From: Antedon bifida
Lineage: Eukaryota > Echinodermata > Crinoidea > Comatulida > Antedonidae
DNA length: 64,000 nucleotides
NCBI GenBank assembly: GCA_963402885.1
Contig: OY727099.1
Span: 15,643,001 to 15,707,000 of the forward strand
Direction of reading: 5' to 3'
Shown here: piece after piece, positions 5,233-48,365 of the stretch
How positions within the stretch are numbered: position 1 is the stretch's first letter
Layout of the letters: every line of letters starts with the position of its first letter
Made by a program: the position numbers and the translations under genes
Notes under the pieces: generated by a model
What the model was told of the DNA's origin: nothing
The model's input: the letters and a program-made list of their open reading frames with translations, nothing else
Databases searched by the model: none

Positions 5233-6990
5233 AAGCCAGAAATTCGCAATATTATGGAATTGTTGAACATGAGATCGGCAGTGAGAGTACACAAGAAAGC
5301 ATGCAGCTTTCATCATCTTCTGAATCTGACACAATTGAAACTAAAGACATGTCTATTGATATGTCTAAGCTAGCTGAAGCTAGTCTTCACAGCCTGATGT
5401 ACCGGTAGCGGAAAGTGTACAAAGTTCAATTAATTGGACAGAAATGCAACCTAATGATCCTGCACATCGGACCAATTTAGTGTATTAAACAGAAACATCA
5501 AAGCTGCAAATGTGTCACATGGGTCCGCGTCAATATAAGCTACTTATCGAACGAAAAAACAACATAATAGAATGCGTTCCTTCCAGAATACATGGTACAC
5601 ACGTCAACTACCATTAGGAAAGGTCACCAGAGATTGGCTAGAATACTCTCCAGCAAAGGATGCTATGTTTTGTTTTGCATGCTCTGTGTTTGGAGGAACC
5701 AAATTGAGTAGTGCGGCAGTTAATTGGATGGTGTGTCCAACTGGAAGAAGGGATTAGAAAAAAGTGCAAAGCATGAACATTCAAAGCCTCATCTTGCAGC
5801 TGCCATTGCTTGGAAGATATTTGTAGCCAAAGGAAACATTTCTGAACAACTAGATGAACAAGCCAAGTTGCAGAAACAAAAGGAAATTGAGCAAAACCGT
5901 GCAATTCTCACTAGATTGCTAGATATTGCTTTTTTCCTGGCAAAGCAAAATCTGCCTTTCCGCGAACATGACGAAAGCGAAGAATCATTAAACAGAGGGA
6001 ACTTTCTTGAATTAGTTGAATTACTAGCGAAATACGACCCTGTACTGCAGAATCACGTCAAGGAAGCGAAAAGAAATGAGCGATACTTTTCTCCTATAAT
6101 ACAGAATTACTTCATTGCAGCACTGTACTGTACGGAAGCACATCATAGATCATATAATTAAGGCCGACTGTTACAGCATAATCATGGATGAAACTTCCGA
6201 CTGTGCCCGTGTTGAGTAAGTCTTGTTTGTTCTTATAGGTATGCCCTTGAAGTAAAAACATATGCGTCGTTTCTCAAGTTCCAAAATGTTGAATCTCTGA
6301 CTGCTGAAGCGTTATTCAAATGTCTATGTAAGACGTTAAAGACATGGGGACTTGTATCAAGAGGTCAGGGGTATGATGGAGCTAGTAACATGTCAGGCAG
6401 GTATAATGGCTTGAAAACTAAAGTCTTGAATGAAAATCCTAAAGCTTTGTATGTACATTGCAGTAATCACTGCCTTAATCTAGTCCTTGTGGGTGCCTTT
6501 AAATCCAATATCCTATGCAAGAACTTTTTCGGTAAAGTAGAACGAGTGTATGTATTTATCGAATCTAGTCTAAAACGAGATTCTATCTTTGTCAGATGTC
6601 AAAAAGAGCGAAACATAGAGCATCCATCATCCCTGAAGAGACTTTCAGAAACCAGGTGGGCTAGTCACTGCGACTCCCTAAGGACAATTGAAAAAACTCT
6701 ACCAGCATTGTTAGACGCTTTGGAGGAAATTTCAGGAGAGGAACATGACAGCAAAATTGTGTCGAATGCAATTGGTCTTTTGGAAAGTGTGTCAACGTTT
6801 GACTTCATTGTAGCTATTACAGTCTTCAAAGACATCCTTGAGACAATTCGTGTGGCTTCTGATGCATTGTAGTGGGAAAGCCACTTCGTGTTTTGTTAAA
6901 TCGTGTAAAATCGACTTATACTTCCGTATTGATGATTTTGAAGCGCCACCTACCGTTGAAAACTGAAACCACGATTTTGCATCGCCTAGC
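5233..6990 (+). pseudogene. hAT-family transposase (ZMYM1/TTF-zinc-finger type), decayed
   Basis: Fragments in shifting frames line up in family order. First is a Ser/Glu-rich N-terminus (5233-5408). Next is a TTF-type zinc finger with WLEYSPAKDAMFCFACSVFG (5572-5720) continued by KHEHSKPHLAA in another frame. A DUF4371-like helical part (5870-6120) precedes the RNase-H-fold motifs: IIMDETSD near 6180 (first catalytic Asp) and GQGYDGASNMSG near 6370. The block with VHCSNHCLNLVL runs to 6872. At least four frameshifts and several stops are needed to read it, and the C-terminal dimerisation segment is not recognisable. Such proteins cut and paste their element. This copy is dead. Terminal inverted repeats were not identified. 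Confidence 0.8.
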
Positions 6991-7099: not shown

Positions 7100-10000
7100 C
7101 AATGGAAAACTAGAATTTAATTCGTCACTTTGACGAATTATAGGTGATCATTTTTATCATTTTACTGAAATTAATATTTTTTAAACATGCACGTACGTTA
7201 ACATACGATCGGAAAATGTTGATGTATGCCATCCTATTATATGCTTATAGTGCTGAGTTGTGCCTATATGCCATATACAATATGTACAGTATATACTGTA
7301 TATCTATATACAGTGTAGCATAGGTGAAATTACGAGACACACATGTTCTAATTCTTTGGCATGATGACGTTATCAAACTAAACTTTAAGATGACAATTTC
7401 GAAAGATAATTAATTGAGCAAAAAAATATAAGATTTGGAAAAAAATTTGGCACGTAGAAGCGCTGTGCGCGCTCTTTGAATTGTGTATAACTTTGACGAA
7501 AAATATGGAAAAACTACTTTTTCACTTCAACTGGCCATATGTTAACGTCACAACATCCGATAGGCTTAATTTTTATATGAATTAATATCTACATTTCATC
7601 AGCTGTCATAATAAATTATAATCATCAAGGTAACCTTTAATTCTGAAGAGCTGTACGATATTCAAATTTACTGCGAAGGTGAAATTACACGGCCTACGTT
7701 ATTCAAGTTTTTACGCGTGATGACGTCATTAAAATGAAGATAGTGTCAACTCATGATAAAGATAATTAATTAAGCAAGCACATACTGAAAGTTGTGCGAA
7801 ATTCGAGCACACATAACCAAGATGCGCTCTGTTGAATGTGATAATCTACACAAAAAGATAACAAATCCTAATTTTTAAATTCAAGTGGCCATTTGATGAC
7901 GTCAAAACATTTTGTACGTAAAATGTGTACATGAATTCATATCTACAACTCAATGGCTTCCAGAATAAGTTAAAAAAATCGGGGGTCATCTTGCATTCTG
8001 AAGAATTATTTTCATTTTAAAAAAGACCTATTTTTCACCATTTTCAGAACTTTTGTAAAATTAATGTGCGCATTTTGTCATTTTTAACATGCTCGTATAG
8101 CGTTATTTTAAGTCGGAACTGACTCAAATTTGGTGAATGTACTAAAGATGGTGAGTAGAATGAGATTTGTAAAAAAAATTCATATTTTTTACGCTTTTTA
8201 AGTATCGCGCGCGCAAAAACGCATTTTTGCGCAGTAATTTTTTGAAACACGCAAATGGCCTAATTCATGCTCTAAATTGATCAAAACTTAATTTTGAGCG
8301 TTTTAAATTTTTAACGCGCGATATCACGCGCATGAACCTACGTGCGCGTGCGTTTTTATTTGCTAATATTTTTACCCTTGATCTGAAGTTTACGTGTAGT
8401 GAATTTCATTAATGTAAGATAATGAATTATGGAGATATGATTGATAATGTGATTTCGCAAAATGGCGTATAAATGTAGTCACGGATGAGTGATCACGTTG
8501 GAAAGCTTATTAGGATTAAGTTATATTATTTGAAAGATATTCTGAAATTTTTGTAATCATTGACATTAAACTTTTTGAGATAATTGTTACACAAAATAGT
8601 GTACAGAAACAATAAAAAGAAAAAAAACTAGAACTTAAACTCGTCACTTGAGGACGAGTTTGGTTATCCGCCCGCAACAAAACGTATCTTGCGCATTCAA
8701 GTACTTTTCAGTTGTGACTTTCCCAAAAAGTAGCCTATTCAAAATTAAAACTGCCCTTTCAGTGTAATAACTAAACAAACCCTTTTATTTTATTGGTTTC
8801 CCGTGATGGGATTCGAACCCGGTACCTCTGATACCAAAGTCGGTTGCACTACACATCGAGCCATTTAAGCACCTGCTGAAGAAAATCCGAAGAAAGAGTC
8901 CTCGTTCATTCGGTATTTCGTAAACCCCCTCGATGCAAGTTGATTATTACATATCGAACTTAAATCATAATTTTTACTATGATGACATCTTCAAAAATTT
9001 TAAACAGTGACATATTATGAAAGTGCATACTTTCAAGTTTTATATATTAACATGTAAAGAAAAAAGATAAACGTTATGTTTATTGTTTTGATCTTTGAAT
9101 ATGTTTATGTTTGTTTAATGATAATTATTTCAAAAATTACATTTAATATGCAAGTAATGTAGCCATCAAACACGTTTTAACATTCAAGACTATAATAAAT
9201 CAGACCTATGATTCATACACTGCAAGAAAATAAAATAAAAAGTGGGGGTAACCTTGCATTCTGATGAACTGTATCACTTTTAAAAGTAGACATATTTTGC
9301 AACATTTTCACAACTTGTTGACGTTTTCGTGCGCAACCAGTCATGTTTAACGTGCTCGTAGAACGCCATTTCAAGTTAAATAGTGAATAAAATAACATAA
9401 AATTGTTAACACAAGTTTGAAAAACACAATTTATGTAAAAGAAAAGCTTATACGCGTTCCCTGCGCCGTGCGCGCGTAAAAATGTGCGCACCAGTGGCAA
9501 TTTTGTAAACGCTTAAAATGACCTGAAACGTGCTCTAATTTAATCAGACATTGATTTGAAGCATTTTAAAATTTCAAACGCCGTTTACGCACGCACTTTC
9601 TAATGTTACAAAATTCGGTAGGGATAAAAAAGTTAACAATTGATGTGAAGCAAACGTGGCTGAAAATTACGTTAAAAATATTTGTCTGTTTCAAAGTTAT
9701 GATCAATTTAAGATTTTCAGAAAATCGCGCGTAACTTACGATACGCCCCTCTGACAGGGTCCAAAAGCTTGGCTGAACAACTTCAGTAAAATGTCTAAAT
9801 GCTGAACAAGTTACAACATATTATGTTTACACGTTGAAGAGAAACAGCGTGCACAAAATAAGAAGAGTAAAATATTTCAAACGCAATTTACGCGAAAACT
9901 TTCTAATCTCCAAAAATTTGTTAAACATTCCAAAAGTTAGCCATTGATGTGAAGAAAACGAGGCTGAAAATTTCGTTAAAAAATATTTATCGGTTTCGAA

Positions 10001-12007: not shown

Positions 12008-15000
12008 CTGCAACCAAAATAAAGTATTTGAAAATATTTGAATTATACAGTATTCACCTTAGTAAACACCTAAAAGCTAAAGGCTACATTAATCTACAGC
12101 CTATTGAATAATGTTTTGATCATGCATGTTTTTTATGTGCCCAATAATAATAATAGTGTATAGCTAGGCTGCGGTTTCATTAAAATCCTATATAATGATA
12201 AGATAAATGAATCTCCCTATATAATTGAGTACCTATTGGTTTTGCTTTAGGACTGGCAAAGTGTGATATGTCAAACCAGTCCCAGTTTTATTATTTAAAT
12301 AAATGCATGGAAAAATGAATGAAAGATTTTATATTTGAGTTTTATTCTATTAGTCTTGTCTCTCCTAAAGCTAAAAGTTCGGTTAAGTTTTCTCTGAGGA
12401 AATATTATATCGCCGCCATCGCTAAGAGAAAGAAGCTAATTTGGGGTAACACTACCTCACAGGCGTTTGTTGCGTCGCAAAGCATTATGGGTTTAAAGGA
12501 AGTACAAATATATTCTGAATATTCATACATGATAATGTTTAATACAAGGAGGATATAAAAAAACAATTTCTCAGAATATCTATTACAATTAACACTCCTC
12601 AGCTTAAGCAAAAATATAACAAATATTGATAAATGCCAACAATGGTTTTTAGTAATTTTGCAAATTTTTGGCTTTGATTTAATATTAATTATTCAATCAC
12701 AACATTGATGACTTTTACTTCAAAAAACATTTTTTTTTTATAATTTATTTTTATCATTGGTGGAGGTCGGAACTCTTTTTATACTTGTTGTATAAATATG
12801 GAGGAATAAAGGTGATAATTGAATTGATATTAAGAAGAATGTATGTGACAACCTCATTATATCTGCCAAATTTAATAAGATTTTTAGGGACCTACTATTT
12901 TAAAAATTAACATACTACCTTATAATGCTGGTTCTACACTTTTCAAGTAAGTTGATAGCTTTATCCTACAATAGAAAACAATACCATTTTTTGTTCAGAT
13001 TTAAGAGAATTGGATCTAAAAGCCTATGCTCCTTAAAACATTTAAACAGATTACGTTACAACTCTGTTGATCCTCGTAACTTTAACAATCGACAATGAAA
13101 AATGTCCGGAAACCCTTACAGTGCGAGCGTTGACTTGACTGTCCCCCAAACATATTATACTACTTTAAATTGCGAGCGGTGACTGTAATCACCCAGGGCA
13201 ATATGCTTTTTCAAATACCATTTCGTTGTATTTCTATGTCATTGAAATAGCCTACTGACCTTTTGGAAATTAAAAAAAATCTATCAACTAACTAACTTTT
13301 GTTATACAAGAAGATATTTGTGCATATATACGCGATTTAATATTAGTGAACTTTAGCAGTGTAAGGGTTAAGATTAGAAACCGTTACTGAAATTTGATAA
13401 GTAACATTTGTACAGAAATAATGTAAAAATCTTCTTTTGTATTTGTATACTGTATTACAGTAATATGTATAACAATACTTACCACTTCATGTTTATTCAT
13501 TAGCACCATAGTTCCTAGTGTCAGATGAAGATGTTGTGACTTCTGAAACATTGTTTCATGTAATCCTTCAGACTTTAAGAAAATAAAAACAAACTAGATT
13601 TTAATTTGTGACTTTAATGAATTATAGGTGATCTTTGTGGTAGAGAAGATCATTTTCATAGGAAGGAAGATCACATAATTAAGAAAGTTTTTAATAACGT
13701 TTTCCCTGGTATTACAAAGCAGACAGATGTAATGAATATAATGGGTAAGATTGAGACATTCACAACACACAATACACACACAGTAAGACAATAAGGACTA
13801 TTATTATTATTAATTTGAAATTCATATAGTCCATACCTGGCAACCTATAAAAATGCAACAAGCCCATTTTTCAAGTGGGGCTTTAAAGGCACATTTCATT
13901 GAATTGAATCTGATTGAAAAACTGCATAATTAATTGAATAAAGTTTAAATTAGTACTATAGGTGTTTTAGAAACCAAATTTTTGAATAAAGCCTGAATGT
14001 TCTATTCTAATAGAACAATACATCTTTCAAGATTGTTTTCATTAATACTACACCAAGTAAATTGTTACCTGAGAACATGTTTTCAGAACATCAGTTTTAA
14101 ATTTGTTGACAGCTTCAGTAATCTTTGGAGTGATAAGTGGTATAGAGAGAAAATGTGTGAATGGTTGTCTTCGACGAGCAGATTCTACCAGCAAATTAAT
14201 TCGATCTCTTGCTGCAGCAACATTCTTTTTTACCTCTGATTTGATTGCTAGGATGCCAACAGAAAAAAATTTACATTAAAAAATTTGATGAAATACCTGA
14301 ATTCACGTATTTAGAAAAAAAGTTTATTTCTAAGTTGTCTTTTATTATTGTGTTATTATTTAAATAAGGTAATGTTGGAAAACAATTTCTTTTCATTGAA
14401 TTCTGGTGGCCTTTTGTACATACATAAAGAAAAATAAATTAAATTTTGCACAATTTTGTCAATGTTTTGTCAACCAAAAGATTTTGGAAATTGTACAAAC
14501 TGTTATGAATTGGGAGTAACTTCTAACAGTTGATTGGTCAGGATAGGAGTAAAAAGACGATGTAGAGGGCAGCAGGAAACAGAGGGTGAGATAGCAGGAG
14601 CAGTACAGAGTAGATATGTGAAGCCAGACGAGAAGTGATATTAGAGATAGAGATAAGAATAAAACAATCATTTTCATTGAATAAAGGAGTTGAGAAGTTC
14701 ATGAGACGTGAGTAGTATTGTAGTTTTATTTTGTTGTTTCATTATTTATAAGAGGAAACAGTAAAACAGTGAAGCCCTGTAAAAGATAAGCCGGGAGTCA
14801 CATTATTTAGATGGTGGTTACAGAGTTAGTCAGTGGTTACGCTTACGGTTATGGTTACAGTAGTTACAGAGTTAGCCAGTGGTTATGGTTAGATTGAGAA
14901 TACTTGATTCACTGGTGCTTACAGAGTTAGCCAGTGGTTACGTTTAGACTGAGGACCTTGATTCATTGGTAGTTACATACAGTAGTAAGCCAGTGATTAT

Positions 15001-16687
15001 TCTTAGACTGAGAATACTTGATTCATTGGTAGTTACATAGTAAGCCAGTGATTATGCTTAGACTGAGAATACTTGATTCACTGGTAGTTACATAGTTAGC
15101 CGGTGGTTACGCTTAGACTGAGGATACTTGATCCACTGGTGGTTAAAGCGTTAGTCAGTGGTTACGCTTAGGGTTAGGGTTACAGTAGTTACAGAGTTAG
15201 CCAGTGGTTATGCTTAGATTGAGAATACTTGATTCACTGGTGCTTACAGAGTTAGCCAGTGGTTACGTTTAGACTGAGGATACTTGATTTATTGGTAGTT
15301 ACATAGTAAGCCAGTGATTATTCTTAGACTGAGAATACTTGATTCACTGGTAGTTACATAGCCGGTGGTTATGCTTAGACCGAGAATACTTGATCCACTG
15401 GTGGTTACAGAGTTAGTCAGTGGTTACGCTATAGACTGAGGGTACTTGATCCACTGGTGGTTAAAGCGTTAGCCGGTGGTTATGCTTAGACTGATGATAC
15501 GTGATTCACTGGTGGTTACAGAGTTAGCCGGCGGTTACGCTTAGATTGAGGATACTTGATTCACTTGTGGTTACAGAGTTAGCCGGTGGTTATGCTTAGA
15601 CTGAGGATACTTGATTCACTGGTGATTACAGAGTTAGCCGGTGGTTACACTTAGACTGAGGGTTACTTGATCACTGGTGGTTACAGATAAGTAACCCTCA
15701 GTCAAAGCGTAACCACCGGAAACTCTGTAACCACCAGTCCTCAGTCAAGGTGCAACTACCGGCTAACTGTGTAACCACCAGTAGATAAGTAATCCTCAAT
15801 AAGCCTCTTTCCCAGCCACTGTCCACATAACAGCATATTCAACCTTCTCAGGCGAAACACATCGCCTTCATTCCCCAGCTGCCCACATAGCACTGTGTCC
15901 ATTTATCTTGCTATATGCACCTGCTGCACCAATCCCCTACAAAAACCAGCTTCTCTACTCCATATCCAGGCTTAATATAACTCTTGCATCACACAAAAAA
16001 CGACTAGCCTAGTCCCTACTGTACTCACAACCTTCTATTCTCCTGTCCTGCTCTCCTTGTTCTTCCCAAACTTCTCCTCAGCCCTGCTCCCAACCAATTC
16101 CGTAACAAATTGGCTATAGTCTACCTCTTGTTCTGCTAGGATTTTATCAAACAGTTCGCAATCTTTGATCATCGGTTGCGGTGTTAAAATCCCTAAAAAC
16201 TAATACGACTATGTTGAACATTTTTATACCAACTGCAGGCATGCGGATCCAACAAAACTGGATATAATTTCTGTTATGATTACTTTTTTGGGCACCGATT
16301 TATTAAGCCTGAGGGAATTGAGATTGGAATGTTCCATTCACAGCCGTCAAGCAATATATTTGTACCGAAAGTATGTACCAACTTTATATACCATCGAGTA
16401 AAAATTCTAAAATATAGGGGAGATTTACCAAAATTTGTCCTTACATAAATTTATATATAGATTGAATGAGTTGCTGTTTGACCTACTTATTACTTCGTTT
16501 GCTTGGCCCTTTGGAATGATGATGTTTGCACCAGTTTCTGTTTCAATCCTCTTTCTTGTTTCTCCTTTTTTTCCAATGATATAACCATAAAAAGCACTTG
16601 GTACATTTATTTGTATTTGGTATCCTTGTTCAATGAGTTTTATGTCATCAATTACACAAGGTCCATCATCACATGTAAACTCATCCT
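11888..16687 (-). CDS. ASCC1: Activating signal cointegrator 1 complex subunit 1 (partial gene, five exons)
   Basis: Five exons read in order on the minus strand: 16487-16687, 14069-14247, 13483-13572, 12919-12965 and 11888-12007. All have AG/GT borders and phases match at every junction (1, 0, 0, 2). The first holds a KH RNA-binding domain with the GxxG loop IIGKKGETRKRIE. The second contains RRRQPFTHFLS. The third has HLHLTLGTMVL, the first H-x-T of the LigT/2H-phosphoesterase-like domain. The last contains GLEYMNDDP and VDVLY, ending in TDNSN. This order is that of animal ASCC1, a nuclear subunit of the ASCC complex that helps the ALKBH3 alkylation-repair pathway and RNA processing. The N-terminal exon and the C-terminal quarter, with the second 2H motif, were not found. 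The gene otherwise looks intact. Confidence 0.88.
12300..12560 (+). other. Unassigned short open frame inside an ASCC1 intron
   Basis: The plus strand is open for about 79 codons (12319-12558) with a basic middle part (SLRKYYIAAIAKRKK). It lies antisense in an ASCC1 intron. I recognise no family and there is no sign of splice sites; probably chance. Confidence 0.15.
12919..12965 (-). CDS. ASCC1: ASCC1 short exon
   Basis: A 47-bp exon follows acceptor CTATTGTAG and encodes DKAINLLEKCRTSII plus two bases. Donor GTAGTATG follows. The phase (two leftover bases) fits the next exon, which begins with T. Confidence 0.8.
13483..13572 (-). CDS. ASCC1: ASCC1 exon with first 2H-type motif
   Basis: Thirty codons in phase 0 at both ends lie between acceptor TTTTCTTAAAG and donor GTAAGTAT. 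The peptide contains HLHLTLGTMVLMNKHEV, whose H-L-T is the first of two H-x-T/S motifs of the LigT-like fold. Confidence 0.86.
14069..14247 (-). CDS. ASCC1: ASCC1 exon linking KH to the LigT-like domain
   Basis: The exon lies between acceptor GCATCCTAG and donor GTAACAAT. It encodes AARDRINLLVES followed by RRRQPFTHFLSIPL, the conserved stretch at the start of the 2H-phosphoesterase-like domain, and ends with KTCSQ in phase 0. Confidence 0.88.
14800..15790. repeat. 55-bp minisatellite with inverted end
   Basis: About 15 imperfect copies of a 55-bp unit, with recurring phrases AGAGTTAGCCGGTGGTTA, GCTTAGACTGAGGATACTTG and ATTCACTGGTGGTTAC, run from 14800 to about 15685. From about 15690 to 15790 the units appear in reverse orientation (AAGTAACCCTCAGTC, AACCACCGG, CTCTGTAACCACCAG), so the end can fold into a long hairpin. 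The array is inside the ASCC1 intron between 14247 and 16487. Confidence 0.9.
16240..16462. repeat. Dispersed repeat next to the ASCC1 KH exon
   Basis: It shares GAGATTGGAATGTTCCATTCA and CCAACTTTATATACCATCGAG with 2.6 and 3.4 kb, where the two parts are separated by a LINE end. It ends 25 bp from the ASCC1 exon donor. Confidence 0.65.
16487..16687 (-). CDS. ASCC1: ASCC1 exon with KH domain
   Basis: Acceptor TTCCTATTCAG precedes 16687 and donor GTAGGTCA follows 16487, leaving one base that joins the next exon to give the reading NEVITIKSE. The exon carries an acidic start (EDEFTCDDGPC), then YIIGKKGETRKRIETETGAN, the KH-domain nucleic-acid-binding loop, and a strand ending IIIPKGQ. An earlier donor-like GTAATAAG would break phase with the next exon and is rejected. 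Confidence 0.88.
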
Positions 16688-36005: not shown

Positions 36006-37385
36006 ATAACCGTTGACGGAAATCTTAAGCAATACCACACCTGAAAATTGACAACTTTTCTACTTGACTACTAATTATGTTGGTACTGCGTAGCTAGAGA
36101 AGAGTAGGATTATACACTGTATATTGGGCAACATATACTGTATGTAGGGTTGTGGAAAAACAGAAATCCAAAAACCAAAAAAAAATAATTAAGTATGTCA
36201 ATAAATTTTTAATCAAATTTTGAGTGTTTAAAAGTTAATTTTTACAGTCCATATTTGTTCTTTATACCCTACGTGATAAATTGCTTTCATTTCCAAATAA
36301 CGCGACACATGCACATGAAAGTTAAGTAATCGTGCGCTCTCCAATTGGAAATTCAATGCAAATTTGTCTACAAAGATATCTATCTTTTATAGCTCTTCAG
36401 AATGCAGAAAACTAAGATCTCAGATATATCTATATCGCGCCATTAATTTGTTCTTACGATCTCGCAAAGAAACCAAGTCTATATATTTCATATTTCAAAT
36501 TATAGTAAGTGCCATTTCCAGACATCTAGCAGCTCTATTTTTTGAAACAATTTTCTTAACAATTAATTAGCTTTAACCATCTGGAGATGGAAAAAATGCT
36601 TATCTTTGAACTAAAGATACTATGGCGCTATTGTTATGTAAAAAATAAATGATAAAATAATAAAACAGTATTATAAGTTTTCTTACTATTACTGCTACTT
36701 GTAAGAAGCGGCCTACAAATTAAATCATAAAAAAAATACAGCAAATTTTACCGAAATCTCAGATCTAGAAAACTTCTAGACACCCCACAGTGCAGATGCA
36801 GAACTTATTATGGAAGCCAATGAGTTGTAGATATGAATTCATGTGCATAGACCACGTACGTCTTGATTAGGAAAAAGTGCATAGTGCATGCGCGTATCTC
36901 GGGACAGTTACATAGCGCCCTCAATTTGTATTTTAAATCGTGAATCTTGTTTACATCTTGCCACTATTTTAAACCAATCATAGCAACGAATGTAAAACGG
37001 TTTGGTCGATTTAGCAGTTTGAAATTAAAAATATATTTATGCCACATAAAAATACCATTAAAATTGAAGATATTATAAACTAACTTTGTATAATATAAAT
37101 GTTTGATGACGTCATATATTTTTATGATTTTAAAACGTAAAATGTATACCTATATTGTTAATTTGATAATTTAAAAATAAAAGTTTTTGAATTGAAGCGA
37201 GACTCTCATGAATATTCATAACCTATTCCTTTATCATAAACAACGTGTCTTGCAACCGGCTTAATAGCGTGCGAGCCATAATCTTGGCGAGAGGTAAGTG
37301 TGGTTTTCGATGTGTAATTTTGAGTTTGTTTAATATATACTGGCTTTATCTTTCCTGAAAGTCACAAAATTATGAATTCTAAATT
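36006..37385. other. No gene; short CRE-repeat remnant
   Basis: Around 36760-36860 and 37080-37150 there are phrases of the TGACGTCA repeat family (TTTGATGACGTCATATATTTT, GAGTTGTAGATATGAATTCATG). Otherwise nothing is recognised. Confidence 0.3.
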
Positions 37386-37791
37386 GTTTTAATATTATAT
37401 TATATAGCCTAGTCCAATTACTGTACTTTGTTAATAGCTATCCTATTCAGAAATGTAGTGTAGGAAGCTTAAGAAAGGAACATGTGCGACATTTGAGAGC
37501 ATGTGCTATAGACATGGGATGGACGCACGTGTGTTGACCTTATCCACGAAATGTGTAGACCTCTATCCATGGATGGGGCAACAGTCCTGTTTTAATATTA
37601 TATTATATAGCCTAGTCCAATTACTGTACTTTGTTAATAGCTAGCCTATTCAGAAATGTAGTGTAGGAAGCTTAAGAAAGGAACATGTGCGACATTTGAG
37701 AGCATGTGCTATAGACATGGGATGGACGCACGTGTGTTGACCTTCTCCACGAAATGTGTAGACCTCTATTCATGGATGGGGCAACAGTCAT
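37386..37791. repeat. 203-bp tandem duplication
   Basis: 37386-37588 and 37589-37791 are near-identical direct copies; I count only about three to four differences (TATCC/TAGCC, CTTATCC/CTTCTCC, TCTATCCATG/TCTATTCATG). The unit contains GGAAGCTTAAGAAAGGAACATG and ATGGGATGGACGCACGTGTG. The duplication is recent. Confidence 0.95.
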
Positions 37792-38344
37792 TTTAATAGA
37801 TAACCGGTGAATATTAGAAAATAGGCCTATTGTGAATATCAAAAGCTAGGCCTAGTATTTTATATATATATACAGTACTATAAATATAATATGTACTTTA
37901 AATTAGCTTTGAAAAAAGGGTCTAAGAAGACTACTGTAGGAAATTTTAATATTATTAGCGCCACTCACTGCACTGTCTGTCTGATGATAAATAATACTAT
38001 ATAGTAGCCTACACACATTTTATTAATAAACTAAAATATTGATGTACAAACTGGAGTTTCTGCAATCGCTTATTTATTTTATTATATTTATTATTCCTTT
38101 CATCATTAGGAAAGTTAGTCGTTGTCTTGTACTTGGTGATTGGATAGTGGTTACATCACAATACGTTACAGCCATTTATGCAGTGTGGCCGCAAACCAAA
38201 CCGTCCATGTTCTGTGGCCCCACACCATGTGTGTGGGGGTTTTGAAAAGAAGAATTCAACTCAACAAATATACATTGCCAACAAAAGTGGGTATTAATTG
38301 AATGTAGAGTCTAGACATACAGTTCTAAACACTAGTTTCAATAT

Positions 38345-38350
38345 TTTATT
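38345..38350 (-). promoter_or_regulatory. Putative polyadenylation signal of the RAG1-like gene
   Basis: AATAAA on the minus strand about 50 bp past the MITE that follows the stop codon. It is the first such hexamer downstream of the coding region on that strand. Confidence 0.4.
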
Positions 38351-38399
38351 TTAGTGTCATGTATTTAACAATAAAACTATTTTAAAACTATCAATTACT

Positions 38400-38586
38400 G
38401 TATACCTGCCAAATATCACGCGCAATGTGATTGTCGCGCATGAGGGCTGATTTATAATACGCCAAAAAGTTAAACATGGAGAGCATATTTTGCGATTGTT
38501 TTGAGTTAAAATAGCATAGAGGGCGCTATATATAATTTTATTTGAATGCCTCACACATTGGCCACTGAAAAAGTTGGCAGGTATAC
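38400..38586. mobile_element. 187-bp MITE, 13-bp TIR, 4-bp TACT target duplication
   Basis: Ends are GTATACCTGCCAA and TTGGCAGGTATAC, flanked by TACT on both sides (38396-38399 and 38587-38590). The interior has no frame. Removing the element and one TACT leaves TAA at the stop codon of the RAG1-like gene. With the element present, the stop reads TAG and the protein is unchanged. Confidence 0.88.
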
Positions 38587-38941
38587 TACTGAGAAAAATT
38601 ACAGTACAAAGAATGTGGTATCAACTGATCAGGCATCTTTGAAGCTTTCTTTTTTTTTTTTTCCGGTTTTGCTGCTAGCATCTGTGGCGATGTTTTCACC
38701 CAATGTTGCTTGATAACACTTTCTAACACTTTCAAATCATCTGGTATGCCCCTGATATCTCTCTTGATCGTGTTGAGCTGGGAATGTGCACTTTCACCCC
38801 CCTGCTCGCCATGAAAGCCTAAACCGAACCCCCACATTCGGATCCATTCACACACATGGTGTTCCAATATGTGCATTTTGGGGGGTTCGGTTTCTTGAAA
38901 ATTCTCTCTAAAGTATTTTATGTAGTCTTTAATGTTGTTTT
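38586..38941 (-). CDS. RAG1L: RAG1-like exon 10: His zinc ligands and catalytic Glu
   Basis: After acceptor TTTTTAACAG the exon encodes NNIKDYIKYFRENF, then KMHILEHHVCEWI, GFHGEQGGESAHSQLN and ESVIKQHWVKTSPQ, and a Lys-rich tail to a TAG at 38586-38588. H-x4-H and Glu (GES) align with RAG1 H937/H942 and E962; QHWVKTS resembles HHWLYTS of RAG1. The stop codon is shared with the end of a MITE. Confidence 0.82.
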
Positions 38942-41900
38942 CTGTTAAAAATAATAACATTTTATAGCATTAATTTTTTTTTAATTTTTAACATCTGAAA
39001 GGTAATTTTTTACTTTAATTTTGTTGACACTTCTTACCTAGAACTGAAACCATATCTTCCGTAAAGAAGGAAGCCAAGTTATATGATCTGTGGCATTGAC
39101 CAAATTTGGTGAAGAGGCTGCCATATTTTAACGTTAAAGCATACACATCTTCAGTTATTGCTGGGCATAGTTCTACTGCTGTTGCCTCTATTTGGCTCAT
39201 AATTTTCTTGATGTTCTCTGGCTGAAATATATAAATACAATAATAGTAAGTAATTATTCTAATTTTCTTTTGCGACTTTAATGAATCAATGTAAAGTAAG
39301 ATTCCAACACATGTGTCATACCTTCACGCATTTGTGGACGTGGTTTCCAACAAAAGAGCGTCCATGGTAGGCCTGCCTCTTCACTTTTATGGACTGTAGC
39401 GTATTTTCAATCGAGGTTGTCACATGTCCATTCTTGGGCAACTTCAAACTTTTAGATGCCTTTTCAGCAGATTCTCTCTAAGTTATAAATATATTTCTAC
39501 CAATAAGTGTTTTTAGTTGATGTTATGTTCATTAAAACTTGTAAGTAATCAGACTAACAATACATACCAATTGTTGTTCCTGTTCAGTTTTCTGATGAAT
39601 CTCATTGAATAATGGTGTCAACTGATTGGCATCCTCACCAAGAATTAGGAAAACATTCAAATAGTCCTTCAGTGCTTCAATTTCATGGGCCAGCTCATCA
39701 GCCTTAAGGGTCTTTTCCTGAATACCTCGAAGCACCCCCACATGTTTGGTAAACTGGGGGGTTGCATGCAAGTCTTCAATGGAATTTAAAGCAATTAAGC
39801 TGCCTATTTTAAAATCTAAAACTTGGCATGCTGCTTCGAGGCTGTTGTAATGCTTCAGGAAAAGCCCAAGGCTTATGTGAAGACCGGGGGGGGGGCAAAT
39901 CTGTAAAGAAAAATTATCAATTAGTTTTTGAATCAGGTGTAAAACAATAAGAACATAAAAGAACAGAATAAAAATCAAATTTAGGTAGATATTCTTTCAA
40001 TAAGGCATTTGCTTACTTGTGTAATGGGTACTGCAAATAGTGGCTTCGAAATAACGTTATTGAAAAGCTTTGCTCTTGTTATGCGCTCTCCATCGGCTAT
40101 ATACTTGGCATTGTCAATTTCCAAAGTCTTCAGGGTTCTTGGTGTCAAGTCCTTCTTCACCTTGGTTGAGTGACACCAAAGGCAATAATGCTTTCCTGTA
40201 AAACATTGTCATTGTCTATCAAAACCAATTCTAAATTTTTATTTTTTTAATAAAGGTAATCAAATAAATGTAAAGGCCATTCCACTTACCATTTGCGCCT
40301 GTTAGACCGTAAATTCGAGTTAGATACTCGTAATCACCAAATATAAAAAGTCTTATCTGTTTGTCTCTGTCAAAAAAACATGTGGTTGACGTTGTAATAG
40401 TATTTATCATGAAATTTTATCCTTTTTTTAGGATGCTATCAACATTAAGCAAACAAAGAGAGGGGTTATCAACTAACCTAATTGTTGATTCCTGCAACTG
40501 GTGTACTTGTGGAATTAGGCGTTTTAATCCAACATTTAAATTATGTAAACTGTCAGTAGCTTCAAAACAGTTAATCACGATGGTATTTTGCAATGAGTTG
40601 GGTGTTTGAACATTTCCGATCTGTACCATCTGTTTGAAATTGCCGCCACCCTTGTCGCCCCCCAACTTTATCCACAGTTCATTTTTTGGTATGTTGCCTT
40701 CATGCCAAGTTAACAGGTCGAGTCTGAAAGAAAACCAGTAACCAGTAAGTCATGACTCATTTTTGTACAGTATATCAAATTATTTTATAAAATATTTTTT
40801 ATACTATGACATTTTCACTTACTTATCTAAGTCATCAATATGTTGTGTTACTTTTTGTTTCAGGTCAGCAACACCAACAGAAGCCGTTTTTAAAACTACT
40901 TGATCTCCTGATTCATCCTTGTGAATCATTGGTAGATACTCTGAATTGATGTTGTTGCTGATGATTGTGTCTTGTTGGGTCCTCATTTTGGCCTCACATT
41001 CAGTTTGAATGCCATATTTTGTAAGCCATCTATAGGATAAAATAAAGGTACTTAACATTTTATTGATGTTACATTTTTGTTTTGGTTTATTTTAGTTTGA
41101 TGTGTTGCTCGTACTGACCGCTTTAATTCACGATTTCGGGTCCATGTAAGACCGAGGTTCGTCTTCAATGAAAGCAAGTCGCCTGTTGGTAGTTTTATAG
41201 GCTTGCGGAGAAGTTGCTTTAGCTCTTCTGGCAGTCTTCTGACTTCACCCGTCATTTGAAACATTGACTCACCACCACTGACCACATCTCGTACTACCTC
41301 AACTAATTTTGTACGATTTCGTACTGTCCTCTGACCAGCAAGTGATGAATCAACTTTCGGTATTATAATAGTTTGTAGTGTCTTAAATAAAATATAATAA
41401 TTGTTTTGATTGATCTTTTTATAGTTTCTTTGTTCATACACTAATATTGTTCATTATGTTTTATTTTAATTTTGTAATTTTTTATATAGACTTACTTGAT
41501 TCTAATAACTCTAATAGGCAATTCTTTAATGTTGACACATTTTAAGCTACTGTTTACTGTAATAAATTACCTTTCCTTTAAATGTGAAGTCTGCCGTGCG
41601 TTTCTTTGAGCTTTCTATCTTGGCTTTTATAATATGGTGACCCAGTTCTTCCATGAGTTGTGTAACTGGTTGGTTTGGTGGATGGTGCAAAATGTCTTGG
41701 ATTAAGTTATTGTTGTGTAAGTCTGTTGGTGTTGGCATGATATGTGGTGAAGTAGAACATGTAGGTGAAGCCAAGTAATCATGGTCAGAAACACAAACAT
41801 GGGTAGACGCATCTTTACATTCAACTACAGTTCGACAACATTTACAAGTCACATTTAAAGACAGATAACATTGAGCAAATATTAGTTGTACAGCAGTAGT

Positions 41901-42524
41901 AGATGAAAAATGGACAGGAATGTTACAAACACAACACTGAACTGTGTCAGTATCCTCATAAAGAGGCTGAACACAGGTCTTACATGTAATGTGTTGACAT
42001 GGAGGGACAACAGGACACTGACAAAGAAGTTTACAAATATTACATTTAAAAGAATTCATAGAATTACTTGGCACAAATGATGATGGTACTGGGGTGAGAA
42101 TGGGTGGATGTAAGTTACTGAAATGTTTTGTGATGTTTTGTTTATGGCGCAATGTCTGTATGTAAATGGAAGAACCGAGGCCACGCTTCTTTTTGGGGGG
42201 TCTTCCTCCCTTTTTTTGTTCCTCAAACAAACCACACGCTTCACACAATTTTCGTTTGTGTGGTACCCACTTCGCCACTCTTCCCAATGGTGTATTGTTG
42301 TCGATTTTTTTTTAGCAGAATCTACACATATATGGAGGGTGTACCCCTTCAACATCGAGGGAAACATCCAGGCCGGTTATCTTGTTTTGATTTTCTTTAA
42401 TTTTTGATTTTCTGTATTCAATTTTCCCATTATTTGATTTGTAAGGTCTAATTCTTTCACCACATAACCTACATAATAATTGAAGATTGGCTAAGTGGTC
42501 CTCCATAATTGGTCTTGTTATCAC
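38586..42524 (-). CDS. RAG1L: RAG1-like protein / transposase, ten coding exons, one internal stop
   Basis: Minus-strand exons: 41571-42524 (ATG at 42506), 41119-41381, 40823-41029, 40478-40723, 40290-40366, 40017-40195, 39568-39900, 39322-39477, 39038-39221, 38586-38941. All introns are GT-AG and phases agree throughout, giving 978 codons; vertebrate RAG1 has just over 1,040. Order: N-terminal zinc motifs (LCRLCG, GVHPPYMCRFC, LCEACG), a basic patch (GGRPPKKKRG), a RING finger near residues 155-195, a C2HC-type zinc segment, then a DDE core. The core has Asp in GGDKGGG, Asp in FGDYEYL, CLWC zinc ligands, HILEHH and Glu in GEQGGES, then QHWVKTS. These parallel RAG1 D600, D708, CxxC, HxxxxH and E962. 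Codon 65 is TAA beside an A-run. It could be a transposase or a domesticated gene. Confidence 0.85.
40017..40195 (-). CDS. RAG1L: RAG1-like exon 6: CxxC zinc ligands
   Basis: The exon begins by completing Gly and encodes KHYCLWCHSTKVKKDLTPRT, then ERITRAKLFNNVISKPLF. CLWC matches the position of the RAG1 C727/C730 pair; its partners HILEHH lie in the last exon. Confidence 0.82.
40290..40366 (-). CDS. RAG1L: RAG1-like exon 5: second catalytic Asp
   Basis: A 77-bp exon encodes DKQIRLFIFGDYEYLTRIYG and LTGAN, with one base left at the end. The Asp in FGDYEYL sits at the expected distance before the zinc-binding CLWC of the next exon, as D708 does before the CxxC in RAG1. Confidence 0.82.
40478..40723 (-). 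CDS. RAG1L: RAG1-like exon 4: first catalytic Asp
   Basis: Between acceptor TTTCTTTCAG and donor GTTAGTTG the exon encodes ELWIKLGGDKGGGNFKQMVQ and continues to TIVINCFEATDS. The Asp in GGDKGGG is at the place of RAG1 D600 (in CDGMGD) followed by a beta-strand segment. The exon ends ESTI plus two bases. Confidence 0.82.
41571..42524 (-). CDS. RAG1L: RAG1-like exon 1: N-terminal zinc motifs and RING finger
   Basis: An acceptor-like TTTTTATGTAG precedes 42524, so a 5' non-coding exon is likely. From ATG 42506 the frame encodes MEDHLANLQLLCRLCG, then LDVEGVHPPYMCRFC, a TAA at 42312-42314, and continues in the same frame with KWVPHKRKLCEACG. The spacing parallels the conserved N-terminal zinc region of RAG1 (LCRICG, HP..FC, WHPH..CDIC). 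The RING motif has CNIC, CQHITCKTC and CCVC; a further C-x2-C...H-x-C zinc segment follows (CKCC, HVC). An ATG at about 42059 lies just before the RING and could start a shorter protein. Confidence 0.85.
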
Positions 42525-42849
42525 CTACATAAAAAAAAAAACTAAAATTAAGCCGGTTTTTAAACAAAGACAAACATTTAAAATGAATATTTATCAACAA
42601 AATAGAAAATGTGAATTTTTCATAAAAACTTTTATTATTTAATAAATCGATAATTTATGTATCTAACAAATATTTGGAACTGTTTTAAAGCAATGTACCT
42701 AGAGAATTGGAGGTCTGACTAATATCGGACCTATTTAACCTTTCGATAAACGAAACGTTTTGAAACTTTATTTCCTAGTAGATTGTTTTATTATTTATAA
42801 AATTCAATAAAAAAATTCTTACTTTTATTAAGTTATCGTAGTAAATTTT

Positions 42850-42985
42850 AACATTTACCGAAGTTTACCGAAGTTTTAAACTCCCCGCGGCTCGTGTCGA
42901 ACGTGCGCGTACGAGCTACAAGTACGTTGCTACGGGAGCCGCTGATTACGCCCTCTATTTTTTTCGAAATCTCAATTTCCAAACA
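42850..42985 (-). promoter_or_regulatory. CpG-rich segment upstream of the RAG1-like gene
   Basis: CTCCCCGCGGCTCGTGTCGAAC and nearby CGTGCGCGTACGAGC stand out in an AT-rich background. On the minus strand, donors CTTCG|GTAAAC and TTCG|GTAAATG (near 42865) could splice to the acceptor at 42524. I read it as a candidate promoter and non-coding first exon; there is no TATA box I would trust. Confidence 0.35.
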
Positions 42986-43009
42986 TCGCACTAGCGAGAC
43001 GTACAAAAT

Positions 43010-43535
43010 GGTATGTCATCATCATTTGGACACCTGATTTAAAAAAATAAAATTTTTCCCTTTTTTCATAGACAATTCACATTCAACAGAGCGCATCAGA
43101 TTTTCTCTCAAATTTACATATATTCTTTCTCAAACAATTCTCATGGATTACCAATATTTTAATTTTGATGATGTCATCACGTTTAAAAATTTGAATAATG
43201 TGGGTCGCATAATTTTACCTATACCGATTATTATTTGAAATCATACAGTTGTTCAGAATTAAAGATGACCTTGATGGTTATAACTTATTATCGAAGCTTC
43301 TGAAATTTACATATGAATTCATGTAAAAATGTCTTGAAGTCATCATATGGCCAACTGTATTTGAAAAGTAGTTTCTTTTTCCAAGTTATACAAATTTAAA
43401 ACAACTCGCAGAATGCTTCTACGTGTCCAATTTTCTTCCAAATCTACTATATTTTTGTTTAAATCATTATTTACCGAAATTGTCATATTCATCTTTGATT
43501 TTGATAACGACACCTATGCTACACGGTATGTGGAT
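43010..43535 (-). repeat. CRE-palindrome repeat family, inverted copy
   Basis: On the minus strand it carries, in order, CGTGTAGCATAGGTG, ACAATTTCGGTAAATA, GGCCATATGATGACTTC, CATGAATTCATATG and TGATGACATCAT, matching 53.35-53.7 kb and 7.3-7.7 kb. It sits between the RAG1-like gene and the BEL/Pao element. Confidence 0.7.
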
Positions 43536-43938
43536 AACAGTTTATAATGTATTTTATTAGGTATGGTAACGCTGTGCGTGTGCGTATTGCATCCTTGATA
43601 ACAAGGCTAAAATCTCAACATTTGTGGACTTTATATTTTTTCTATTTTCACTATCTTTATTTATATTTTCATAAATAAGAATATTCTGAATATTACGAAC
43701 AATGAGTCGATTTAGTGCACATATTCTACCATTGGTCTTAATATGATTTTAGTCCGCCATTGCTTTTTGAGTTTTTGAGTTGCAGAAACTGATCAAGACT
43801 GTATAATAATTGATTGTTAATTGTTACAAAATAATTTGGTGATCCAGGTTGTCTCTGTGTTGCGGAGGCCACCATTGTTTTCTGCGTTGCGGAAACTAAT
43901 CGAATTTGTTAACCAAATTGTTTATTCTGTGTTGCGGA

Positions 43939-44975
43939 ATGGAAAACGATTCGCAGTTTGGTTTAGGTGGATACAATTTGAGGAAGGTGCCCGCTCAAAC
44001 TGAAAAAGGAAACCAATATAGGATGGAGTTGGGAAAGGAAAATCGGGATTCATCTAGAAATTGTGCAGTCAGTCCATCTCAACACATTACAGTTCCATCA
44101 TCGTCGTTTAGTCCATCTCAACACATTACAGTTCCATCATCGTTTACTCCATCTCAACACATTACAGTTCCATTATCGTTTAGTCCATCTCAACACATCA
44201 CAGTTCCATCATCGTTTACTCCATATTCACTTGTTACTTCATTATCACCACAGCGTGTTGCATGTCAAGCCACAACGCCAGTCTCATCACAAAACTTTCC
44301 GATTTTGTCACCATTTGTGCAACCTTCACTGTTTAATCAGCCACAGTTTAATCAGCCACAGTTTAATCAGCCACAGTTTAATCAGCCACAAGCACCGGTT
44401 ATGAAAGAGTTAATAGATTCATTACGATTACCAACAGGGTGGAAAGGTTTGATGGAAACCCTTTAAAATACCGTAGGTGGGAATGTGCATTTACCTCTTT
44501 AATTGAATCTAAAGCCGTATCGTTGAATGAAAAGTTGAACTTACTAAGTCAACATCTGTCAGGAGAGCCGCTAGCCATGATAAGTAGCTATATGTTACTA
44601 CAGTCGGAAGAAGTTTATTAGTGTATATCGTTATGTATTATCGTAGTGAACTTAAAAATAGATATGGTAACAATGCTGTTATTTCTAAGGCGTTTTTGTA
44701 CAAGTTAGAAAGTTGGCCAAAGATTCAACCAAGAGATGCGCCTGGTCTTAGAGTATTTTCAGACAAAATCGTGGTAGCTAAACAATAGATTCCGGATTTG
44801 GGAGTTTTAGATTACCCTCAAGAGAACCTTAAACTAATAAAGAAGGTACCTTATTTCATAGAAAATAAGTGGCGAAATATTGCACAATCTTATGCTAATG
44901 TTGACTCTTTTCCAAGTTTTGAAATATTTGCAGGTTTTGTCAGAGCAAGGGCTGATGAAGCCAATATACCAATTA
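43939..44975 (+). pseudogene. BEL/Pao gag (DUF1759-like)
   Basis: ATG at 43939 starts a frame beginning MENDSQFGLGGYNLRK. It contains four copies of a decapeptide-like unit around PSQHITVPSSF (44081-44225) and four copies of FNQPQ (44331-44395). After a frameshift near 44450 come MERFDGNPLKYRRW and LSQHLSGEPLA, then (44640-44975) KNRYGN, DYPQENLKLIKKVPYFIENKW, the usual core of BEL/Pao gag. Stops at 44619 and 44788. The repeats make the N-terminus unusually low in complexity. A gag zinc knuckle was not seen. Confidence 0.75.
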
Positions 44976-45440
44976 ATACGTCTTTGTGCACCTCCGTTAC
45001 AAGTAAATCATCAAATACTTCTATGATAATGCCTGTTTGTTTTATTTCAGATAGCATTGCTGAGAAACTAAAGTTGGAGGGGAATAAAACCAATCTACTT
45101 TTGTCAACTATGCATAGCAAATCATCCGTGTCATGTCACAAGTTTAGCCACATGGAAGTTGTTAGCTTTGACCGAAAGACTGTGATACCAGTTCCTACAG
45201 TTTTTTCTAGAGATCAAATTCCAGCCACCAGATCCCTACTCCGTCTGTCGCAAGTAAGTGGACTCACTTGAACCGCATTTCATCTGTTATTGTTCCTTAT
45301 ATGCAGAATGTGCCGATAGAGATGTTAATAGGAAACAATGTTCCAAATGCCATTAGACCTAGAGACATAAGAGTTGGTGGAGAAGACGAACCATACGGAC
45401 AACTATCAGCTCTTGGATGGGGTGTCGTGGGCACCATGTG
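44976..45440 (+). pseudogene. BEL/Pao aspartic protease region, truncated
   Basis: Segments SIAEKLKLEGN (45055), HSKSSVSCHKFSHMEV and VPTVFSRDQIPA (45190), then after a shift IEMLIGNNVPNAIRPRDI and PYGQLSALGWGVVG (to 45432), are the C-terminal part of the DUF1758-type peptidase. The first catalytic motif (D-S/T-G) is missing, so a deletion seems to have joined gag to mid-protease. Confidence 0.7.
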
Positions 45441-45539
45441 CCAAAAGGTTCCGGAAGTGTCGGTGTCTAATCACATGGTTGCTTCGGAAAAAGACTCAAA
45501 TGTATCACAGAAGAATCATTTGGTAAGTCAAACTAATGC

Positions 45540-46290
45540 CAAAGAGATGATTTTGATAATGTATGAACTAGATTTTAATGACGATAAGCCTGGTCAATCT
45601 GCAATGTCAGCCGATGATCGTAAATTCATGGATATCATGGAATCTAATGTAGTTCAGCGTACAGATGATCACTACGAAATGCCTCTGCCCTTAAAGATAA
45701 GTAACATGGCTTTAAAGCGTCTAAAACAGCTTAAACACAAACTAAATCATAATTTAACCTTTAAGAATGACTACATGAACTTTATGGTAGATGTTCTTGA
45801 GAACTGTTCCTGTAACGAACTGGACATGCGTAATGGTGAAATTAACTACGTTCCTCATCATGGTGTATATCACCCGAAAAAAAAGATTGTTCAGCCGAGT
45901 ATGCTGGAATATCATTAAATAAACGTTTATTACAGGGACCCGATATGATTAACAATTTATTTGGAGTCTTAACTCGTTTCAGAAAGGAACCAATTGCTAT
46001 TCAAGCCGATGTGAAAGGAATGTTTCACCAGTTTTTTGTTTCAGAGCCTGATCGTAACTTTCTTCGATTTCTATGGTGGAACGACGGTTCTGAAGAAATT
46101 GTCGAACATAGGATGACTGTACATCTGTTTGGTGCAGTGAGTTCGCCTCAGTCGCTAACTTCGGCCTACGAAAGGCTGCTGATGATGGTGAATCTTAATA
46201 CGGTAAACCAGTTGCTGACTTCATACGTAACGACTTTGACGTCGACGACGGTTTGAAATCTCTTCCATCGGAAGTTGATGCAATTTAATT
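45540..46290 (+). pseudogene. BEL/Pao reverse transcriptase
   Basis: The N-terminal part has MSADDRKFMDIM and YEMPLPLK. Next come NNLFGVLTRFRKEPIAIQADV with KGMFHQFFV (first Asp motif), then HLFGAVSSPQ. The catalytic pair is in FDVDDGLKSLP (about 46225-46255) in a different frame. Stop codons at 45916 and 46254. This reverse transcriptase cannot be made in one piece. Confidence 0.8.
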
Positions 46291-47160
46291 GATCGACTCT
46301 TCTACTAAGATGTGTGCTAAGGCAGGTTCAACATTGCATAAATGGGTAACTAACAATAGACAAGTGTTAAATTCAATTCTCACAGATTTGAGAGCAACCG
46401 ACTGGAAGGAGATTTCTTTACACGACAAGTTACCTATTGAACGTGCACATGGTGTTGTTTGGTACGTGGAAAAGGATACGTTCGAGTTTCGAATGGAATT
46501 TAAAGATAATCCAGTCACTCGCCGTGGAATTCTCTCTACTTTAAGTGCAGTATACGATCCGTTTGGTTTCCTGGCACCTGTATTGATTGTTGGAAAACTG
46601 ATTCTACGAGAATTGTGTATGTCTCAGCTTGATTGGGACGATCCACTTCCAGACGAGACGTATCATAAGTGGGCCAGATGGCGAAATGATATAATATCTG
46701 GAATCGAGAACATTAAGGTCAAACGATGTTTTAAACCGGTCAATTTTGGTTCCAAGGCGGAAATGCATTTTTTCTCAGACGCAAATGAATTTGCTTATGC
46801 TCAATCATCTTACATCAGACTAATTAACACTCTAGGACAAGTGTCCGTATCTTTTCTTCTAGGTAAATCCAGGATTGTACCTAAAACCAAAACCACTACC
46901 ATTCCAAGGTTGGAACTTGTCGCCGCAGCCTTATCAGCACGTATGAGTGGACTGATAACGAGAGAACTGGCTTACGATGCTACACATTATTATTGGTGTG
47001 ACAGCAAAGTTGTCCTGGGGTATATCTGAAATGAAGCAAGAAAGTTCAAGGTATTTGTATCTAACCGCATACAACAAATTCATGACCACTCCAATACCAG
47101 TGATTGGCATTACGTTCCATCCGCATCTAATCCAAGTGACTCTGCTACAAGGGGAGTGAG
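46289..47160 (+). pseudogene. BEL/Pao connection and RNase H region
   Basis: SAVYDPFGFLAPVLIVGKLI and LDWDDPLPDE (46545-46655) mark the Pao-specific segment. HFFSDANEFAYAQSSYIR (46765) holds the RNase H Asp in the SDA context; KTTTIPRLELVAA supplies the Glu and YYWCDSKVVLGYI the third Asp. The frame is open for 246 codons and breaks at 47029. Confidence 0.8.
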
Positions 47161-47164
47161 TATT

Positions 47165-48365
47165 GTTCAGCTGACGAACTCTACATGGTTAAATGGACCG
47201 CCCTTCTTGCATACTAACGAGCCATTACCGTCTGATGAATCTTATGTGGAAACTACTGATGTTGACATTTCAGACGAGATGCGGAAGACTTGTGTATTTT
47301 CTACTTGCATATCTTTAGATTTTTTTCAGAAATGGTTTATTAGTTTATGCAACAATTTCTCATCATGGACCAGGTTGCGCAGGGTAATCACTAGATGTCT
47401 GATGTGGAAGAAACGACTGATGAACGCTGCTAAAGTTTACATAAAGGAGGGTAGCGTGTTTAAATTGATTTCTTAGGACTGTACCATACCTTGTGTAGAT
47501 GACATTCAAGTAAGTGAGAAGTTAATATTGAAACATGTTCAAGATCAACACTTCTACGATGAGAAAGTATTACTAAGCAAGCTGTTAAACACTAACAGTT
47601 TAGAGGATCGCAAATCAGATGTTCAGCTGAAAAGATCAAGTTTTCTATGTGGACTAGATCCGTTTTTAGATGAAAACCAACTTATAAGAGTTGGGGGAAG
47701 AGTAAAACGTTCAAAGTTTGCATTTGATGTTAAGCATCCCTTGATCTTACAGAAAAAGTGTCACATTTTCATGAGCAGATGAACCATGCCAGGAAAGTTT
47801 CAACCTTAAATGAAGTCCGACAACGAGGCTATTGGATAATCCACGGTCTATCGACAGTTGGCGAATTGGTTCATCGTTGTGTAATCTGCCACAAGTTAAG
47901 GGGTAAATTATCGAACCAGAAGATGGCAGACCTACCAATTGAGAGGATTTCAGATGCTGCACCATTTACCTACAATGGACTAGATTTATTTGGACCTTTT
48001 AACATAAAAGAAAGAAGAAGCCTCGTAAAAAGGTACGGAGTACTTTTCATTTGTTTATCATCGAAGGCCATACATTTAGAGACAGCAAATACGTTGGAAA
48101 CCAATTCATTCATTAACGCATTAAGATGGTTCGTTAGTGTTCGTGTACCAGTCAGACAACTACATTCGGATAGGGGAACCAATCTTGTCGGTACCAGAAA
48201 TGAATGACAAAACGTAAATGAAGACAAGGTCAAGAAATATCTTGTGGGCCAAGGTTGTGATATCCATTTCAAATTTAACTTCCCGTCCACCAGCCATATG
48301 GGAGGAATTTGGGAATGCCAAATTCGTACTGTGAGAAATGCTTTGGCTCTTCTACTAATTGGATG
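47165..48365 (+). pseudogene. BEL/Pao integrase core
   Basis: Order: RVGGRVKRSKFAFDVKHP (47690), then HFHEQMNHARK and CVICHKLRGK (HHCC zinc finger, about 47760-47905). Then come NGLDLFGPF (first catalytic Asp, 47985), LHSDRGTNLVG (second Asp, 48160) and, after a stop at 48205, SSHMGGIWECQIR (third, Glu, about 48310). The frame is lost at 47476, 47780 and 48205. Confidence 0.8.

Follow-up and report, generated by a model that had tools for sequence, protein, structure and literature searches.

Chapaev transposons (Kapitonov and Jurka 2007, as cited in PMC4411706) are the described systems closest to the element analysed here, which lies in a 64,000-nucleotide stretch of the feather star Antedon bifida (contig OY727099.1, positions 15,643,001 to 15,707,000 of the forward strand; hereafter the window). 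Kapitonov and Koonin (2015; PMC4411706) describe a Chapa domain in Chapaev that also occurs in the N-terminus of RAG1 and is fused, in two Chapaev subgroups, to a RING finger, and infer that Chapa, RING and core were already joined in a common ancestor; the RING of RAG1 is an E3 ligase (PMC4411706). In the Chapaev core, C(2)C and H(3-4)H motifs lie between the second D and the E of the DDE triad (PMC12730594). Majorek et al. (2014; PMC3985635) assigned the Pfam family DUF1280 to Chapaev transposases and, in their RNase H tree, placed it together with RAG1 in clade II. Chapaev target site duplications measure 3-4 bp (PMC4079192), those of Transib and RAG1/2 5 bp (PMC8355894). Transib transposases differ from the window element in having no Chapa or RING region (PMC4411706), while the N-RAG-TP of Aplysia (Panchin and Moroz 2008, via PMC8355894) resembles it as a transposable element with RAG1 N-terminal-like sequence. 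The open-access literature, a scope that excludes subscription papers and Repbase Reports, yielded no paper on a crinoid Chapaev, and the parts of PMC12730594 drawn on here hold no structural model of a Chapaev core.

A preliminary description of the locus called it a RAG1-like gene. Its architecture and model-predicted fold are indeed RAG1-like, but the gene encodes a Chapaev-type transposase inside a multicopy transposon broken by a stop codon, and the element belongs to Chapaev and not to RAG1L. We consider it very probable that this is a decayed crinoid cut-and-paste DNA transposon of the Chapaev superfamily, presumably once autonomous, whose one-gene transposase combines Chapa, RING and DDE core. 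With the Chapaev elements that have Chapa and RING it shares these three parts in one protein, DUF1280, a CAC end and a 4-bp duplication (AGAC). It differs from them in belonging to a crinoid family and, in the window copy, in its stop, weak inverted repeats and ends: of the 5'-CAC...GTG-3' terminal inverted repeats of Chapaev, one CAC end is present and the other is degenerate.

The gene, its ends and its insertion site

Ten minus-strand exons join from an ATG at 42506 to a TAG ending at 38586, giving 979 codons including the stop. All nine introns are GT-AG, and the phases close across every join. This is, by codon count, the model of the preliminary description, which had claimed a 978-codon frame in perfect phase; the phases stand, but codon 65, directly past the second pair of Cys in the first zinc region, is an in-frame TAA. 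In our reading of the alignment, all nine internal junctions coincide with exon borders of a homologous gene at locus L024, which belongs to the family of the Antedon mediterranea protein P0002 and carries extra introns beyond these nine. Because the nine junctions recur there, the exon model is not due to chance; the ten-exon model is right, and the gene is broken. Features are given below in window coordinates, with exons 2 to 10 each placed by exon joining and by the L024 borders.

36853..42996, minus strand: whole Chapaev-type transposon, 6,144 bp; ends shared with the sister copy on C14, AGAC duplication; the plus strand starts CACGTACGTC and finishes CACTAGCG
36849..36852, unstranded: target site duplication AGAC, left copy; AGAC at both flanks, unfilled related repeats
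42997..43000, unstranded: target site duplication AGAC, right copy; AGAC at both flanks
40138..40887, unstranded: stretch absent from the C14 sister copy; alignment of the two copies
41571..42506, minus strand: exon 1, with Chapa domain, RING and second zinc finger; donor GT, Pfam PF12560, hhalign to the RAG1 N-terminus
42312..42314, minus strand: in-frame stop TAA, codon 65; gene translation, same in the C14 copy
41925..42044, minus strand: RING finger, codons 155-194; Cys pattern, hhalign to RAG1, RING matches in the PDB
41793..41846, minus strand: putative C2HC-like finger past the RING, codons 221-238; sequence and a weak phmmer match
41119..41381, minus strand: exon 2, where the DUF1280 match begins; Pfam
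40823..41029, minus strand: exon 3
40478..40723, minus strand: exon 4, first catalytic Asp D492 (40654-40656, GGDKGG), end of the DUF1280 match; Pfam
40290..40366, minus strand: exon 5, second catalytic Asp D562 (40333-40335, FGDYEY); profile comparisons
40017..40195, minus strand: exon 6, zinc ligands C581 and C584 (CLWC); profile comparisons
39568..39900, minus strand: exon 7
39322..39477, minus strand: exon 8 (GNHVHKC)
39038..39221, minus strand: exon 9
38586..38941, minus strand: exon 10, zinc ligands H884/H889, catalytic Glu (E910 or E906), C-terminal helix and stop; profile comparison
38401..38585, unstranded: insertion like a miniature inverted-repeat transposable element, directly past the transposase stop codon, with 12-bp inverted ends TATACCTGCCAA/TTGGCAGGTATA; sequence by eye

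The Chapa/RING part and the core sit in separate exons, as they would if two neighbouring genes had been joined only by the model. This explanation is extremely improbable: P0001 and P0002, both from A. mediterranea, each hold the two parts in one annotated protein, phase and intron positions agree across families, and tblastn found N-terminal region and core, in the same order, in all eight further loci (drawn from 15 fetched, with L026 and L028 representing a single family).

The ends of the element were derived from a sister copy, not from a repeat search; scanning the window for CAC...GTG repeats accompanied by a duplication gave a single, poor match (12/16). The sister copy, found by DNA search at G000:C14:9584090-9589270 in the same genome, spans window positions 36853-42993 except 40138-40887. 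Identity is 98.3-98.7% with gaps, with 43 mismatches in 5,379 aligned bases (a 0.2-kb tandem stretch being counted twice). Both copies start CACGTACGTC at the left; at the right their common stretch ends at 42993, and the last three bases were placed by the 4-bp duplication. Since its flanks differ, the C14 copy is not a segmental duplicate. The window element is inserted in another dispersed repeat, with more than 30 rows at about 72% identity in the DNA search, whose halves lie at 36802-36852 and 42997-43507. The unfilled repeats L018 and L020 run continuously over the site (CACATT AGAC GTACAAAATGG). AGAC on both sides of 36853-42996, together with these unfilled relatives, therefore defines a 6,144-bp element with a 4-bp duplication.

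N-terminal region, DDE core and predicted fold

The 64 residues ahead of the TAA match Pfam RAG1_imp_bd (PF12560) with E 8.6e-6, above its cut-off, and the N-terminus aligns with that of RAG1 with an hhalign E of 2.5e-16, which bears out the RAG1-type N-terminal zinc motifs first proposed. Among 140 shuffled Chapa controls, one outscored the real alignment, which was traced to a two-column artefact, and the next best scored 24.3 against 76.2. The RING region (codons 140-260) aligns with RAG1 at E 1.7e-8, and RING structures were matched in the PDB (best E 4.5e-4). The putative C2HC-like finger, whose phmmer match to 1rmd reaches only E 1.5, lies where RAG1 has the finger that comes after its RING. 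The order Chapa then RING is thus present in the window protein, as judged by homology to the RAG1 N-terminus and not by a Chapa profile.

After the TAA, Pfam DUF1280 (PF06918) matches with E 1.4e-19 and 71.1 bits, against a cut-off of 25. The motifs follow as D492, D562, C581/C584, H884/H889 and E906/E910, giving D/D/E with CxxC and HxxxxH. All are invariant in the eight sequences of alignment A1. Alignment A2 has 10 rows and takes in shorter proteins; all of its rows keep the first Asp and the two Cys, and at least 90% keep the second Asp, whereas its list of conserved columns omits those of H and E. For RAG1 we take the corresponding positions to be D600, D708, C727/C730, H937/H942 and E962. 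On these positions, the RAG1 order and rough spacing claimed earlier hold for the order, for D562-C581 (19 residues, equal to D708-C727) and for H884-H889 (5, equal to H937-H942), but not for D492-D562 (70 versus 108).

The window protein does not match the RAG1 core family PF12940 at E up to 10, and neither do P0001, P0002, P0003 and P0009 at E up to 1, HMMER filters discarding most matches above about 0.1; the scan does detect P0052, 35% identical to the RAG1 query, with 362 bits. DUF1280 was found instead, with a weak profile pairing to RAG1: two comparisons bring the second Asp and the CxxC pair into register and a separate run pairs H/H/E and the C-terminal helix, while the first Asp is paired with RAG1 in none of the runs. 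The sequence-only comparison of the cores is marginal, too weak to rest on.

Predicted models of two relatives, P0001 and P0003 (50% and 38% identical to the window protein; Foldseek was applied to the P0001 model only, and VIA alone to the P0003 model), give a RAG1-like core fold. In both, the predicted core comes nearer to RAG1 than to Transib (Z 25.8 versus 19.2 and 25.9 versus 22.2), although the greater length of the RAG1 chains also works towards a higher Z than for Transib. The best structural alignments start near RAG1 residue 459, past the nonamer-binding domain.

With vertebrate RAG1 and the RAG1L of amphioxus ProtoRAG the element shares the N-terminal zinc region, RING, DDE with CxxC and HxxxxH, and predicted core fold. 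The RAG1-homologous N-terminus and the structural preference over Transib could suggest a strict RAG1-like gene (RAG1L/ProtoRAG/TransibSU), that is, a direct relative of vertebrate RAG1. We find this very unlikely, as the four family proteins give only PF06918, the duplication is of 4 and not 5 bp, and the Z margin is open to the chain-length effect. Furthermore, there is no second long open frame for a RAG2-like neighbour (none above 87 aa at 36853-38585 and 42507-42996, outside the gene span, a small-exon gene not being profile-searched). Strict RAG1L membership was rejected on the missing PF12940 match and the 4-bp duplication. A PF12940 search of the whole genome also gave no match, but the same query gave none in its controls, so this result does not show RAG1L to be absent.

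Relatives, decay and mobility

The A. bifida genome (G000, 315.6 Mb, with the window at C12:15643001-15707000) holds 66 DUF1280 places, the window copy included. Loci L024 to L027 have clean CAC repeats. L024 and L025 are 99.86% identical over 6.5 kb, with ends CACGTATCCGCG and duplications CTCA and TTGT; L026 and L027 have ends CACGGCAGTTTC and duplications ATGG and CATC. As near-identical copies, relatives in the same genome have recently moved. P0001 and P0002 are 50% and 40% identical to the window protein over 96% of the query and share DUF1280, with RAG1_imp_bd in P0001 and common intron positions in the P0002 family (L024); they differ in belonging to other families and in being annotated as uncharacterized proteins, not transposases. 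L024 is 96-100% identical to P0002 over four exon pieces aligning without intron gaps. Homologues at E <= 0.001 number seven, all from echinoderms (two each from A. mediterranea, Patiria and Holothuria, one from a sea urchin), and a second search from the homologue alignment, scoring the best 7,988 candidates, gave five proteins, one from a sponge. No relative turned up when genome contigs were scanned with P0001, the 23 hits being pattern matches.

At G000:C8:21557845-22207099 (L032, L033), 19 of the 66 DUF1280 matches lie within 0.65 Mb, in both orientations and with equal or near-equal score; two share 99.4% identity across more than 9.2 kb, their ends not reached. This cluster is a local amplification of a Chapaev gene.

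The C14 copy carries the same TAA at codon 65. Its exon 1 has also lost 8 bases, and the 750-bp deletion takes away both catalytic Asp together with the whole of exons 4 and 5, cutting into exons 3 and 6 as well. Because the two copies sit at different places and have this stop in common, at least one near-full copy probably moved after the frame broke, using transposase in trans; gene conversion is an alternative source of the common stop. The insertion past the stop codon falls within the stretch common to both copies, and a 203-bp tandem duplication at 37385-37790 (copies 98% identical) is single on C14. Many introns, long open exons and the lack of clear inverted repeats at the window copy would also suit a domesticated host gene with a cellular function. 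Such a gene is highly improbable here and was rejected, given the filled site with unfilled relatives, the common stop and a 98-99% identical sister copy that has lost 750 bp of its catalytic part, beside many genome relatives, some near-identical.

Several observations weigh against a Chapaev transposon as we describe it. No target duplication flanks the C14 copy, which is three bases short at the right. Two of the four unfilled relatives are not exactly AGAC: in L019 its first base differs, and it is missing from the copy at window 7701-8100. In gene orientation the degenerate right end has CGC in place of CAC, and the two ends compared (CACGTACGTC versus CGCTAGTGCG) give no clear terminal inverted repeat. 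Among 12 other-family copies with ends examined, four (L024-L027) have clean paired CAC ends and a 4-bp duplication; the ends of the remaining eight were not resolved, L030 being flanked by masked bases. By sequence alone the core matches RAG1 weakly (E 0.019-0.029), and 4 of 200 column-shuffled controls reached the real score in a run whose RAG1 side was residues 1-815 of the N-truncated P0037, not the core alone; a repeat on the RAG1 core alone gave E 0.029, with 0 of 55 shuffles as good. Finally, the modelled proteins are relatives and not that of the window, and confidence is low in the N-terminal third of the models.

Elsewhere in the window, a broken BEL/Pao retrotransposon lies at 43900-47200 on the plus strand (Peptidase_A17, PF05380, E 9.1e-43 at 46289-47026), self-comparison reveals a satellite-like tandem array at 14812-15800, and a 218-aa plus-strand open frame at 6216-6872 resembles, by eye, part of a hAT-like or ZMYM/DUF4371-type transposase.

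Possible mechanism and bearing on RAG1

By analogy with the Chapaev/Transib/RAG1 group, the transposase would act as a recombinase of RAG1/Transib type. Its core may bind the element ends as a dimer, pairing both. D492, D562 and E910 (or E906) would serve to cut the two strands, while the Cys2-His2 zinc site would brace the insertion domain; the ends would then be joined to target DNA with a 4-bp stagger. RAG1 and Transib make a hairpin on the flank. The roles that have been proposed for the RAG1 N-terminus (nuclear import, dimerisation or ubiquitin ligation) may also be those of the Chapa/RING part, and the RING may be an E3 ligase as in RAG1.

RAG1 is the enzyme that cuts antibody genes, and the feather star element is a good further example of a kind already described, not a discovery in itself. 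The preliminary description held that both halves in one gene newly inform RAG1 assembly; this was anticipated by Kapitonov and Koonin (2015; PMC4411706), the architecture having been in print since then. What is added is a precise crinoid example, including the ends of the transposon and its unfilled sites, together with predicted structures that link the cores of Chapaev and RAG1, for which comparison by sequence alone is marginal. The origin of the two RAG1 halves is debated, and a one-gene element with counterparts of both is material for testing the N-terminal half. One tentative and rather doubtful hypothesis is that the core of Chapaev, from DDBD to C-terminal domain, is a recombinase core of genuine RAG1 type, with a fold as near to RAG1 as Transib's or nearer, so that full-length RAG1 would descend vertically from a Chapaev-like one-gene element of which crinoids still hold recently mobile members. 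If so, the role of the RAG1 N-terminus in transposition would be directly testable in crinoid elements.
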